This document shows, in pieces, positions 6,712 through 31,915 of a stretch of DNA of 33,749 nt. This DNA is from Candidatus Acetothermia bacterium (GTDB lineage Bacteria; Bipolaricaulota; Bipolaricaulia; Bipolaricaulales; Bipolaricaulaceae): the NCBI GenBank assembly GCA_003566155.1, contig PXEP01000198.1, forward strand, positions 1 to 33,749. Direction: 5' to 3'. The stretch's first letter is position 1. Every line of letters starts with the position of its first letter. The position numbers and the translations under genes are program-made. A model generated the notes under the pieces. The model did not search any database and was not told the origin of the DNA. It saw nothing but the letters and a program-made list of their open reading frames with translations.

Positions 6712-7002
6712 TCACTTTTGGAGCAAAGGACGCTCATACCAAATGTAGCACAAGAGCCTCAGCACCGGGATCCAAGCCCCCAGGAGGAGGATGAACACGC
6801 CCCGGCCTACATTGCCTAGGCCCAACAGCAGCCCTCCCCCTGTGACTCCGACGATGCCGCTCATCCACGCAGAGAAGTTGCCCCACCCGTGGTTGATCGG
6901 GGTGCCCCCGGTAAGGAAGTGGTGTCCGGTACGTTGTTGTTCTTGCGCGTAGCAGGAAGCGTGGTAGGGAAGCAACTTGAGCCCCAGGATGGCTACGACC
7001 AT
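6712..7002 (-). CDS. Small putative membrane protein
   Basis: 96-aa ORF with two hydrophobic Gly-rich helices (GIVGVTGGGLLLGLGNVGRGVFILLLGAWIPVL); weak SD. Confidence 0.4.
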   Translation of the reverse strand: MVVAILGLKLLPYHASCYAQEQQRTGHHFLTGGTPINHGWGNFSAWMSGIVGVTGGGLLLGLGNVGRGVFILLLGAWIPVLRLLCYIWYERPLLQK

Positions 7003-7251
7003 CAGATCTTCGACGGACAGTACCGGCTCGATGCATCGCTGACAGATCGGTCCGGGACGCTGTAGGTCACTCCTTCGTTCGGGACTGGATGCTCATCCCC
7101 TCCTGTCGATCGGTGCTCCTGTAAGCGCGACGGGTTCGCGTCCATGTTAGCAGGGGAGCTGTAGTGCGACTAGTGTCGTCTGGAACAGTGGATGAGCTCA
7201 CCTCGGGCGCACTGGCGACCGTGGGGAGTCCCTCGGCGAGGAGGCGTATGC

Positions 7252-17534: not shown

Positions 17535-17603
17535 GGGGACAGTCCCCCTAGGGAGGACGCCGGGGACTGTCCCCCTAATGGAGGCTCGGGGGACAGCCCT
17601 CTT
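17531..17603. repeat. REP-like repeat cluster A (GGGGAC[A/T]GTCCCC)
   Basis: CTAGGGGGACAGTCCCCCTAG (perfect 21-bp palindrome 17531-17551), CGGGGACTGTCCCCCT, degenerate GGGGGACAGCCCTC. Confidence 0.93.
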
Positions 17604-19940: not shown

Positions 19941-20029
19941 TAACGGGGACAGTTTAACGGGGACAGTCCCCCGGGTGTAGGATAAGGGGACTGTCCCCCT
20001 AACAGCTTCCGTGGGGACAGTCCCCCTAC
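19941..20029. repeat. REP-like repeat cluster B
   Basis: ACGGGGACAGTTTAACGGGGACAGTCCCCC...AGGGGACTGTCCCCCT...TGGGGACAGTCCCCCT. Confidence 0.93.
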
Positions 20030-25997: not shown

Positions 25998-26096
25998 CAC
26001 GGGGACAGTCCCCCAGGGGTAGGTAAAGGGGACAGGCCCCCCGGTGAGGTCGAAGGGGACAGTCCCCCACCTCTGATCGGCGGGGACTGTCCCCCT
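25998..26096. repeat. REP-like repeat cluster C (four copies)
   Basis: ACGGGGACAGTCCCCC, AAGGGGACAGGCCCCC, AAGGGGACAGTCCCCC, GCGGGGACTGTCCCCCT. Confidence 0.95.
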
Positions 26097-26977: not shown

Positions 26978-27043
26978 GGGGGGGGACAGAGGGGGGGGGG
27001 CAGTCCCCCCTACCCAGGTAACGGGGACTGTCCCCGTCCCCCC
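26978..27043. repeat. REP-like repeat cluster D (degenerate, with long G-runs)
   Basis: GGGGGGGGACAGAGGGGGGGGGGCAGTCCCCCC followed by ACGGGGACTGTCCCCGTCCCCCC. Confidence 0.85.
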
Positions 27044-28207: not shown

Positions 28208-29555
28208 TTGGAAGATGTTAGATGAGTTCGTGCGCGAGCGGATGAGAAGGACACGGCTGCCGGGGTTGAGCATGATTGTGATCCGCGGCGACGAGCCCTT
28301 GCACACGCGATCGTACGGTTTTCGCGATCTTGCCAAGCGCCTTCCAGCCTCGCCCCGCACTGTATACGGGATCGGAAGCATCTCCAAATCGTTCGCTGCC
28401 CTGTCCATCCTCAAGCTGGCCGAGGACGGGAAGCTCTCCCCCGAAGATCGTGTGGACCGCTTTCTTCCCCTGACCATCCGGCCCCACGGGGAGCCAATCC
28501 GCATATGGCACCTTCTCACTCACAGTTCGGGGATCCCTGCGCTGGGCTACGCCGAGGGGGAGATCCGCTTCGGGCAGGGCACCGGCGGACGGTACACCAC
28601 CCTCTCAACGATAGAGGACTTTGTGGACTGGCTGAACGACTCCGAGGACTGGGTCGAATCCCGCCCCGGCGAGCGCTGGCTGTACCTGAACGAGGGCTAC
28701 ATCATCCTTGGCGGGATCGTCGAGAAGCTTACCGGCCTTTCGTTTGCCGATTACGTCCGTAAAGAAATCCTCGAGCCTTTGCAGCTCCAGGAGACCGGCT
28801 TTCTCGGCGAGGACCTCGGGCCGGAGCTTGCGGTCCCCTACATCATCCCCAGCGAAGGACAGGCCAAGGCCGGCAAGGTCCTGCCCATCCCCATCGGAAG
28901 CGATGGGGGCTTGGCCAGCACGGCGCTGGATATGGCCAGGTACCTCGGGTTGTACCTCCGGCAGGGGAGTCCGTTGATCAGCCAGGAAACCTATCAGCAG
29001 ATGATCGCCCCACGGGTTAGGCTCCCCCACGTTCCGGCGCCGTTCTCTGACGCCAGCCGGGGCTCGTATGCGTATGGACTTATGGTGCAGCCCTTCTTCG
29101 GCCGCACGCTGATTGGCCACGGGGGGAGCGTCCTTGTGTACACCGCGTACATTGGCTATCTCCCGGAGGAGAACCTTGGGGTTGCCGTGCTCGCAAACGG
29201 GGGTGGCTACCCCTGCTCACAACTGGCGCAGATCGCCCTGGCCCATGCTGCCGGCGAGGATATTGACGAACTCTCCTGCCTTGAACTGGAGGACTTGGGG
29301 GAGGAGCTATCGGGGTCCTACGCCACGTACCGTGAAACCATGCGGGCTACCGTGCGGGTCCGCGGCGCCATTGTGGAACTCACCATAGAGGACAGCGAAT
29401 CGCCGCAGACCGTCTACCTCACTGTGGAGGAACCGGGCAAGGAGGAAGTTCGCTGCCGCGCGCACCTTGGAGACCGCCAAATGGAGGTGGTGTTCCGCCG
29501 CACAGGCTCCAACGTGGAACTCCTGTACGAACGCTACAAACTCCGCCGCCTTTGA
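28200..29555 (+). CDS. Serine hydrolase, beta-lactamase/class C PBP family
   Basis: GIGSISKSFAALSILKL (SxxK), WLYLNEGYIILGGIVEKLTG (YxN), LIGHGGSV; 8-nt overlap with upstream gene. Confidence 0.92.
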   Translation: MPDWKMLDEFVRERMRRTRLPGLSMIVIRGDEPLHTRSYGFRDLAKRLPASPRTVYGIGSISKSFAALSILKLAEDGKLSPEDRVDRFLPLTIRPHGEPIRIWHLLTHSSGIPALGYAEGEIRFGQGTGGRYTTLSTIEDFVDWLNDSEDWVESRPGERWLYLNEGYIILGGIVEKLTGLSFADYVRKEILEPLQLQETGFLGEDLGPELAVPYIIPSEGQAKAGKVLPIPIGSDGGLASTALDMARYLGLYLRQGSPLISQETYQQMIAPRVRLPHVPAPFSDASRGSYAYGLMVQPFFGRTLIGHGGSVLVYTAYIGYLPEENLGVAVLANGGGYPCSQLAQIALAHAAGEDIDELSCLELEDLGEELSGSYATYRETMRATVRVRGAIVELTIEDSESPQTVYLTVEEPGKEEVRCRAHLGDRQMEVVFRRTGSNVELLYERYKLRRL

Positions 29556-29597
29556 GGGGGACAGTCCCCCTCAAGCTAGGTAGGGGGACAGTCCCCG
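29554..29597. repeat. REP-like repeat cluster E (5' flank of transposase)
   Basis: GAGGGGGACAGTCCCCCTC and TAGGGGGACAGTCCCCGTTG. Confidence 0.93.
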
Positions 29598-29625
29598 TTG
29601 CCTTATCCTCTTTCTGCGTTATACT
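29598..29625 (+). promoter_or_regulatory. Putative transposase promoter TTGCCT-N16-TATACT abutting repeat cluster E
   Basis: Hexamers at 29598-29603 and 29620-29625. Confidence 0.5.
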
Positions 29626-29650
29626 GATGTGGAAGGAGGAGCAAAGGTTC

Positions 29651-30238
29651 ATGGCACGGAAACCTCGTTCATGGCTCGTTGGACATGCTCATCATGTGCT
29701 TTCCCGAGGGAACCAACGAAGGAGGGTCTTCCACACACCTGATGACTACGCAGCGTTCCTGGCGATCATGAGAGAGGCCAAGAACCGGCATCCCATTCGC
29801 CTCCTTGGGTACTGTCTTATGCCCAACCATCTGCACTTCGTTCTCATGTCACGCGAACCCTGGGAGCTTAGTCGTTGGATGCATTTGGTGCTTACAACGC
29901 ACGTGGCTCGCTACCGCAAGGTTCACCAGTCTGTGGGGCACATCTGGCAAGGACGTTTCAAGAGCTTCCCGATCGAGGATGGGCACATTCTCCTGGTGCT
30001 ACGATATGTTGAAGCCAATCCTGTGCGGGCAGGACTAACCAGGTCGGCAGGCGCATGGTTGTGGTCTTCGCATCGCGAGCGGCTTGGCATCGCAGGAAGA
30101 CAGCTCGCCGACCCTCTCCCGATCAAACTTCCGGCAGACTGGGCCGACTACGTCGACAGGCCGCTCAAAGAGGCAACCCTCAGTGCGGTGCGGCAAGCCG
30201 CACAGAAGGAGAAGAGGGTAGAGGGACTGTCCCCATAG
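29651..30238 (+). mobile_element. rayT: REP-associated tyrosine transposase (Y1/HUH, RayT/TnpA_REP-like)
   Basis: MARKPRSWLVGHAHHVLSRGNQRRRVF, GYCLMPNHLHFVLMSRE (HUH), GHIWQGRFKSFPIEDGHILLVLRYVEANPVRAGL (catalytic Tyr); SD GGAAGGAGGAG. Confidence 0.93.
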
Positions 30239-30263
30239 TCAGCTTGATGGGGACAGTCCCCCT
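30221..30263. repeat. REP-like repeat cluster F (3' flank of transposase)
   Basis: GAGGGACTGTCCCCATAGTCAGCTTGATGGGGACAGTCCCCCT. Confidence 0.93.
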
Positions 30264-31152
30264 AGCATTCGGTGTCGGGACAGGCGGGGCCGTCGGGGCG
30301 CTCGATCTCGATGGTGGCGTGTTCAACGCCCCGCGACTGCAGCTCCTGTTTGATCCGCGCCCGTAGGTCGGCCGCTTGCTCGTAGGTATCTACCATGTCC
30401 GACACGACGTGTGTCGTGAGCACATGGTGCACGCCGTCCTGCGACCACAGGTGCGTGTGATGTATATCACATACACCTGGCACGCTGCGGACTAGCTCTT
30501 CGATCTGTCCTAGATCCAAGTCCTCGGGTACGCCCTGAAGGAGGATCACCAGCGTTTCCCGTAGCCGTTTCCCCACGTTCCACACCACATACAGCGTGAT
30601 TGCAAGCGACAGGATAGGGTCCAGGATGGGCACGTTGTGTATCCAGATGACCACGCTGGCCACCAACACCGCCAGCCACCCAAGCACGTCCTCCAGAAAG
30701 TGCCAGGTGACGATGCGGTCGGTGAGGCTGCGGCTTCCGTGCATGCGCAGGGCGGCGGCGCCGTTCACGAGGACGCCCACGACGGCGAAGGCGAACATCC
30801 CCGGAGCATGCGTGGGCTGGGGGGAGATGATCCGGGGGATCGCCTGGGACAGAACCACGACCGCCCCGCCGAACAGCACCACCGACATGAGCAATGCTCC
30901 CAACAGCGAGAAGCGCCGGTAGCCAAAGGTGAACACCTCATCGCCTCGGCGGCCGGACATCCGGGCGAACCGCCAGGTCATCCCCAGGGTGATCGTGTCC
31001 CCCAGATCGTGCAGGGCATCGGACAGGATGGCCATGCTATTGGTCCAGATGCCACCGGCGACCTCAAACAGGGTGAACCCCAGGTTAAGGAAGAACGCGG
31101 TCCGGATCCGCTGCTCCGAGGTGATCGCGTGTCTATGGTGTTCGTGGGCCAT
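30262..31152 (-). CDS. Cation diffusion facilitator (CDF) family metal transporter
   Basis: NSMAILSDALHDLGDTITLG, WHFLEDVLGWLAVLVASVVI, VCDIHHTHLWSQDGVHHVLTTHVV. Confidence 0.95.
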   Translation of the reverse strand: MAHEHHRHAITSEQRIRTAFFLNLGFTLFEVAGGIWTNSMAILSDALHDLGDTITLGMTWRFARMSGRRGDEVFTFGYRRFSLLGALLMSVVLFGGAVVVLSQAIPRIISPQPTHAPGMFAFAVVGVLVNGAAALRMHGSRSLTDRIVTWHFLEDVLGWLAVLVASVVIWIHNVPILDPILSLAITLYVVWNVGKRLRETLVILLQGVPEDLDLGQIEELVRSVPGVCDIHHTHLWSQDGVHHVLTTHVVSDMVDTYEQAADLRARIKQELQSRGVEHATIEIERPDGPACPDTEC

Positions 31153-31842: not shown

Positions 31843-31915
31843 TAGGGGGACAGTCCCCATGTGGTGTTCGGGGGGGACTGTCCCCCTACTACCCCCCTTG
31901 GGGACTGTCCCCCTA
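31843..31915. repeat. REP-like repeat cluster G
   Basis: TAGGGGGACAGTCCCCAT, CGGGGGGGACTGTCCCCCT, TTGGGGACTGTCCCCCT. Confidence 0.95.

Follow-up and report, generated by a model that had tools for sequence, protein, structure and literature searches.

The window, a stretch of 33,749 nucleotides of bacterial DNA, carries a Y1 transposase gene between two matched inverted clusters of a palindrome that is repeated throughout the source genome. The best explanation is that the locus is a TIRYT/RAYT-type element and that the scattered palindromes are short non-autonomous copies of its ends, dispersed by its enzyme or by a recent ancestor of that enzyme; we put the probability of this reading at about 0.8. 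An initial annotation, made from the letters alone, had proposed an autonomous REP/RayT-type element at 29554-30263, with the transposase gene bracketed by the palindromes. The palindromes are placed as it described and the region is a coherent element, as judged by its matched ends. The exact 27 bp period of the palindromes, the inversion of the two clusters over 58 bp, the stop codons that abut the element and the short C-terminus of the protein go beyond what it reported.

The element and its transposase

The features of the element are as follows.

29555-29612, plus strand: 5' terminal inverted repeat (TIR; palindrome pair E and inner extension), an inverted match to 30206-30263
29557-29569, plus strand: palindrome GGGGACAGTCCCC, cluster E unit 1, exact match
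29584-29596, plus strand: palindrome GGGGACAGTCCCC, cluster E unit 2, exact match, 27 bp after unit 1, with GTAG before it
29651-30238, plus strand: Y1/HUH transposase of RAYT/TIRYT type, 195 aa, by PF01797, fold match and catalytic columns
30206-30263, minus strand: 3' terminal inverted repeat (palindrome pair F and inner extension), overlapping the 3' end of the transposase gene
30222-30234, plus strand: palindrome AGGGACTGTCCCC, cluster F unit 1, one mismatch, with GTAG before it, encoding GLSP
30249-30261, plus strand: palindrome GGGGACAGTCCCC, cluster F unit 2, exact match, next to the stop codon of the cation-efflux gene

Clusters E and F match each other in inverted orientation over 58 nt, with 76% complementarity. 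Outside the palindromes 20 of the 32 TIR positions match (permutation p = 2e-5), and it is this agreement of the non-palindromic bases that makes the clusters a matched couple rather than two random members of a repeat family. Each arm of the element is itself palindromic, and GGGGACAG, which has the motif GGGGWSAS, is found in both ends. At the 5' end of the element a beta-lactamase-like ORF ends at 29555, its TGA running directly into GGGGAC (29552-29557). The stop codon of a cation-efflux ORF (30262-31152, minus strand) adjoins the 3' end, where CCCC is followed by CTA, the stop on the other strand (30261-30264). The stop codons of both neighbours abutting the element suggest that it inserted exactly between two convergent genes.

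The longest ORF spans 29552-30238, its open frame reaching back to a TTG at 29552, although the likely start is the ATG at 29651, about 10 nt 3' of GGAGGAG. The protein matches Pfam Y1_Tnp (PF01797, E = 8.5e-13), in agreement with the assignment made from its motifs, which are NHLH at residues 59-62 and YVEANP with Tyr119. Residues N59, H60, H62, Q100, R102, K104 and Y119 are among the invariant columns of 33 homologues and all are kept in the window protein. The model NF047646 (REP_Tyr_transpos) is matched by all 33 aligned homologues (E <= 0.001), with the window protein scoring 68.9 bits, under the cut-off of 80. A sequence search of the PDB with the transposase gave no true relative and a fold search was therefore run. 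The predicted structure has a pLDDT of 86.6 and its top match in the PDB is 4er8, a TnpAREP-REP hairpin complex (E = 3.2e-8).

The last codons of the gene, GAG GGA CTG TCC CCA TAG, fall within the palindrome at 30222-30234, so that cluster F does encode the final residues (GLSP) and the stop, as had been read initially. About 35 C-terminal residues of the relatives, the segment 'PFG...GRPRK', are missing here, with palindrome-coded residues in their place, and because of this loss the window enzyme is possibly inactive. Its branch length is 1.42 against a median of 0.35, which fits the divergent ends of the window element; its placement, among sequences with GGGGACAGGCTAC ends, is unsure. In a Pfam scan Y1_Tnp is the sole match, with no C-terminal HTH in the window protein or in relatives of 160-225 aa. 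No tnpB is seen beside the transposase gene. There is no match to the element among PLSDB plasmids, none to the palindrome pair in IMG/VR, and no Rfam family match within the window.

Phased palindromes in the window and the source genome

If one mismatch is allowed, GGGGACWGTCCCC has 18 matches in the window, where 0.11 are expected and none of 100 shuffles reached 18. Beyond clusters E and F they include five groups, to which no strand is assigned.

17535-17601: array of two exact units and one decayed unit (17589), 27 bp period
19959-20025: array of three units, 27 bp period
26001-26094: array of four units, 27 bp period, between the convergent genes for SHMT and a BsuPI-domain protein
26996-27035: unit pair, 27 bp period, between divergent genes
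31846-31912: array of three units, 27 bp period

The source genome (G000), an assembly of 236 contigs with a total of 1.93 Mb and a completeness of 83%, contains 73 exact copies of GGGGAC(A/T)GTCCCC and none of a reversed-pattern control. When the DNA around every exact copy is included and up to two mismatches are allowed, 109 units are detected, with 28 arrays of 2 to 4 units scattered over about 30 contigs. By simple ORF calling, the 41 clusters lie between unidirectional genes (17), between convergent genes (10), between divergent genes (4), within a called ORF (8) or at contig edges (2), and they are often 30 bp or less from a stop codon.

When the units are oriented by their central A, 62 of 73 have an A at position -2 (background 19%), and a sign test comparing the two sides gives p = 9e-7. 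This asymmetry gives the near-symmetric palindrome a direction. The foot of the units is a strict GTAG in 7 of 73 and TAR in 26 of 73, and the TAG or TAA that precedes some of them may be the stop codon of an upstream gene.

The spacing of the units is strict, with 33 of the 45 short gaps being exactly 27 bp and a further 6 being 26 bp. The match to the consensus at an offset of 27 averages 7.43 of 12 positions, against 3.37 +/- 0.25 at other offsets. The 14 nt spacers, on the other hand, are essentially random, sharing 4.1 of 14 positions between arrays as against 3.8 for nearby flanking DNA. Single strands of the palindrome pairs fold well (z -3.9 to -6.5) and the expected order of A and T is seen in 17 of the 33 pairs with the 27 bp period. 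The self-complementarity of the spacers is not above chance (p = 0.35), which speaks against their forming hairpins. Tandem duplication was rejected as the source of the arrays, since consecutive spacers agree at 4.55 of 14 positions compared with 4.12 (11 pairs), with the exception of locus L131. A CRISPR-like array is not supported, there being just 2 to 4 units per array, spread over so many contigs.

Two palindrome clusters are found in one called ORF with a high coding score (L139, contig C113, 849-2228), being either intragenic REPs or the result of a miscalled ORF. Contig C81 (L135) has related, longer three-unit arrays at 2528-2592 and 6934-7034, with variant units GGGGACAGGCCCC and a common outer context, which are a local duplication of the entire array. 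Another variant unit, GAGGCCTGTCCCC / GGGGACAGGCCTC, recurs at L140 2472, L142 1242, L150 1924, L133 2576 and L147 2510; in every case an exact unit lies 27 bp away, and the variant forms a repeat subfamily. On contig C3 (L125, 2787-2919) a unit and its flank are duplicated at an offset of 103 bp, and one unit pair there is merely 17 bp apart rather than the usual 27.

Homologous elements and class assignment

Among 100 genomes of the phylum the palindrome expansion is present only in the source genome, the other 99 each having 0 to 2 copies. The source genome has one gene of this transposase type; in a genome of the same genus (G001) neither the palindrome nor a match to the transposase is present. 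One gene and one expansion, both absent from the same-genus genome, support the linkage of enzyme and palindromes that had been proposed. A genome of the same family (G007) has one GGGGACAGGCTAC pair and a homologue that is 48% identical, with a full C-terminus and ends of the GGGGACAGGCT type. The source genome has one copy of the element, and no empty site was found. A DNA search of four relatives and a comparison of syntenic genes gave no orthologous intergenic site that could be aligned well enough, divergence or rearrangement at the loci being too great; the same-genus genome retains the DUF6930 and PPC-domain genes in a different order. That genome also contains another GTAG-tagged inverted-repeat family (GTAGCGTCGGAG/GGGG ... 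CTCCGACGCTAC), with several copies in about 230 bp (L193, contig C59, ~2190-2420).

Homologues of the transposase with 36-52% identity are found in Omnitrophota, Planctomycetota, Elusimicrobiota, WOR-3, Nitrospirota, Aminicenantes, Pseudomonadota and others. For the 72 loci with enough flank for their ends to be assessed, 48 have GGGACA within 200 bp 5' of the gene and TGTCCC just 3' of it, compared with 3 of 1106 control windows. The usual TIR of the homologues is AAAAAGGGGACAGGCTACTTTTT, which often provides the gene's own TAG stop, and locus L036 resembles the window in having an entire hairpin pair at both ends. Genome G075 has 33+33 copies of GGGGACAGGCTAC that form inverted pairs; the distance within a pair is mostly 26-29 bp, and the spacer is rich in A/T and able to pair. 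G075 and the source genome have in common the outer 8-mer GGGGACAG and the spacing of the pairs, whereas the inner half-site (GCTAC in G075, TCCCC here) and the spacer differ; from these sequences we infer that the pairs of the two genomes are one homologous design. An Aminicenantes MAG (G063) has 43+40 copies of the GGGGACAGGCTAC half-site. It also has GGGGACAGGCTAC pairs at a distance of 65-67 bp whose internal sequences are alike in part (L184-L186); these pairs are MITE-like and have the same end type.

Two relatives have several copies of the whole element. Singulisphaera sp. GP187 has three (L057, L058 and L060), 98% identical and in unrelated flanks, in which similarity starts at GGGGACATAGC and stops at GCTATGTCCCC, the ends falling at GGGGACA/TGTCCCC. 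This is apparently a recently mobile multi-copy relative of the RAYTs. Four near-identical copies, also in unrelated flanks, are present in Ca. Thiodubiliella with ends GGGGACAGGCTAC...GTAGCCTGTCCCC; the intact ends again stop at GGGGACA/TGTCCCC, one copy being degraded at its 5' end and one having a diverged 3' end. Near-identical copies in unrelated flanks show that the enzyme family moves whole elements, in the case of these homologues rather than of the window copy. The description 'autonomous' is borne out for the relatives, and the window element, a single copy that lacks the C-terminal segment and for which no empty site was found, is no more than a candidate for it.

Di Nocera et al. 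(2013) gave the name TIRYT/TIRtron to RAYT-like genes flanked by inverted repeats that share GGGGWSAS, in some cases with self-complementary ends that occur as dimers or in clusters, the dimer spacers being able to vary in sequence at similar length (PMC3733652). In its enzyme, TIR and motif the window locus fits this class: it has a Y1 RAYT-like gene within TIRs that contain GGGGWSAS, here as GGGGACAG, and its ends are also found in the genome as dimers and clusters. It differs in its 73 exact copies with their 27 bp phasing, the random spacers, the palindrome-pair ends and the loss of a C-terminal segment that close relatives have, and its lineage is outside that survey as far as the text of the survey shows (PMC3733652). 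Quentin et al. (2018) placed 20 of the 26 described TIRYTs in subclass 2.1 of TnpAY1 and asked for confirmation (PMC6006769). Proteins of this subclass carry a C-terminal HTH, and no REP-like repeats are reported near its genes (PMC6006769). The window protein shares the N-H-u-H, WQ and SS motifs and Y-x-x-x-N-P with it (PMC6006769), but has no such HTH, nor do its relatives of similar size. Since the HTH is described in members of subclass 2.1 and is not stated as part of the definition of TIRYTs, the general class is kept and the subclass is not claimed.

The canonical RAYT/TnpAREP systems of E. coli and Pseudomonas resemble the window enzyme in fold (4er8) and catalytic motifs (PMC2817692, PMC3116915, PMC8266576), and RAYT/REPIN systems share the hairpin pairs in the 3' regions of genes and the single enzyme per repeat family. 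Here, however, the foot is a degenerate nAR in place of strict GTAG, the score against NF047646 is below its cut-off, the spacers are neither conserved nor self-complementary, and the genes are in TIR-bounded elements, which are multi-copy in two relatives. The matched TIR, the related ends of the homologues and the movement of whole elements in some of them thus uphold the link between a RayT-type enzyme and the palindromes, with TIRYT/TIRtron as the nearest class rather than the canonical GTAG-RAYTs. With IS200/IS605 (IS608, ISDra2) the locus shares, by homology, an HUH/Y1 single-strand mechanism, as well as PDB fold matches. It differs in having inverted repeats as ends, rather than subterminal imperfect hairpins, and no adjacent tnpB; the multiple copies expected of such elements are seen in Singulisphaera and Thiodubiliella and not in the source genome.

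Origin of the palindromes

By analogy with studied enzymes, the transposase would recognise its own palindromes as single-stranded hairpins, strand-specifically, by a CAG loop and an A two bases before the stem, a candidate substrate being 5'-GTAGGGGGACAGTCCCC. It would cut beside the hairpin and re-join the strand elsewhere, like TnpA of IS608 and TnpAREP, probably on the lagging-strand template. Canonical TnpAREP is known to cleave hairpins strand-specifically, with a dependence on GTAG that varies (Corneloup et al., PMC8266576). The 27 bp pairs would correspond to the hairpin pair ('REPIN') that is mobile in relatives, in which the inner half-site GCTAC may have been replaced by TCCCC here, making each arm a palindrome by itself. 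The short palindrome copies are then most likely non-autonomous ends moved by the enzyme.

Since the spacers are not shared, the arrays are not what simple copying of a 40 bp pair would predict. Either the pairs are old, with selection on the palindromes and their distance, or palindromes were inserted singly at a fixed distance, and the data are compatible with both. It is conceivable but unlikely that the mobile unit is the single 13 bp palindrome and that the enzyme inserts each new copy so that its centre lies 27 bp from that of a palindrome already present. If this were true, insertion would act as a self-targeting ruler, producing phased arrays with pre-existing host DNA as spacers.

Strict spacing with random spacers (33 of 45 gaps) also resembles selected sites more than copied units, and the arrays might be the sites of an unrelated cellular protein, a regulator or chromosome organiser, selected at a 27 bp period, into which a transposase merely inserted. 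This is quite unlikely, as clusters E and F match as inverted repeats outside the palindromes too, and homologous genes in other phyla are bounded by the same GGGGACAG outer half-site. In addition, a conserved regulon would not be confined to one genome of the phylum, and just 4 of 41 clusters are between divergent genes. The many clusters between unidirectional or convergent genes and close to stop codons, together with the good folding of the pairs, could instead indicate hairpins that act as intrinsic terminators or at mRNA 3' ends, amplified for that function and unrelated to transposition. No T-run is seen 3' of the arrays, however, and Rfam gives no match; the same preference for 3' ends is common to REPs in general (PMC3733652), and neither the directional A at -2 nor the presence in one species is a feature of terminators. 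This origin is very improbable. The palindromes could serve the cell in other ways, at RNA 3' ends or in protein binding, whatever their origin.

Compatible with the preferred origin, and somewhat unlikely rather than remote, is that the element is decayed and immobile, its truncated enzyme dead and its palindromes relics or otherwise maintained. The missing C-terminal residues, the long branch and the single copy are in keeping with this. Against it, the frame is open with every catalytic column kept, 73 of 109 units are exact, so that the repeats are not decaying freely, and other RAYTs that lack such C-terminal modules are active in vitro (PMC8266576).

For the TIRYT/RAYT-type element with scattered ends, the fixed 27 bp period and random spacers are a constraint that goes beyond a simple REPIN-copying model. 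The TIRYT branch has barely been studied, having been described in 2013 and its link to repeats left open in 2018, and in the literature examined we met with no in vitro work on it. This locus is a clean pair of one enzyme and one repeat, and two relatives have multi-copy elements with ends that can be read to the base. Together they bear on, and make testable, how the end of a transposon becomes a family of palindromes scattered through a genome.
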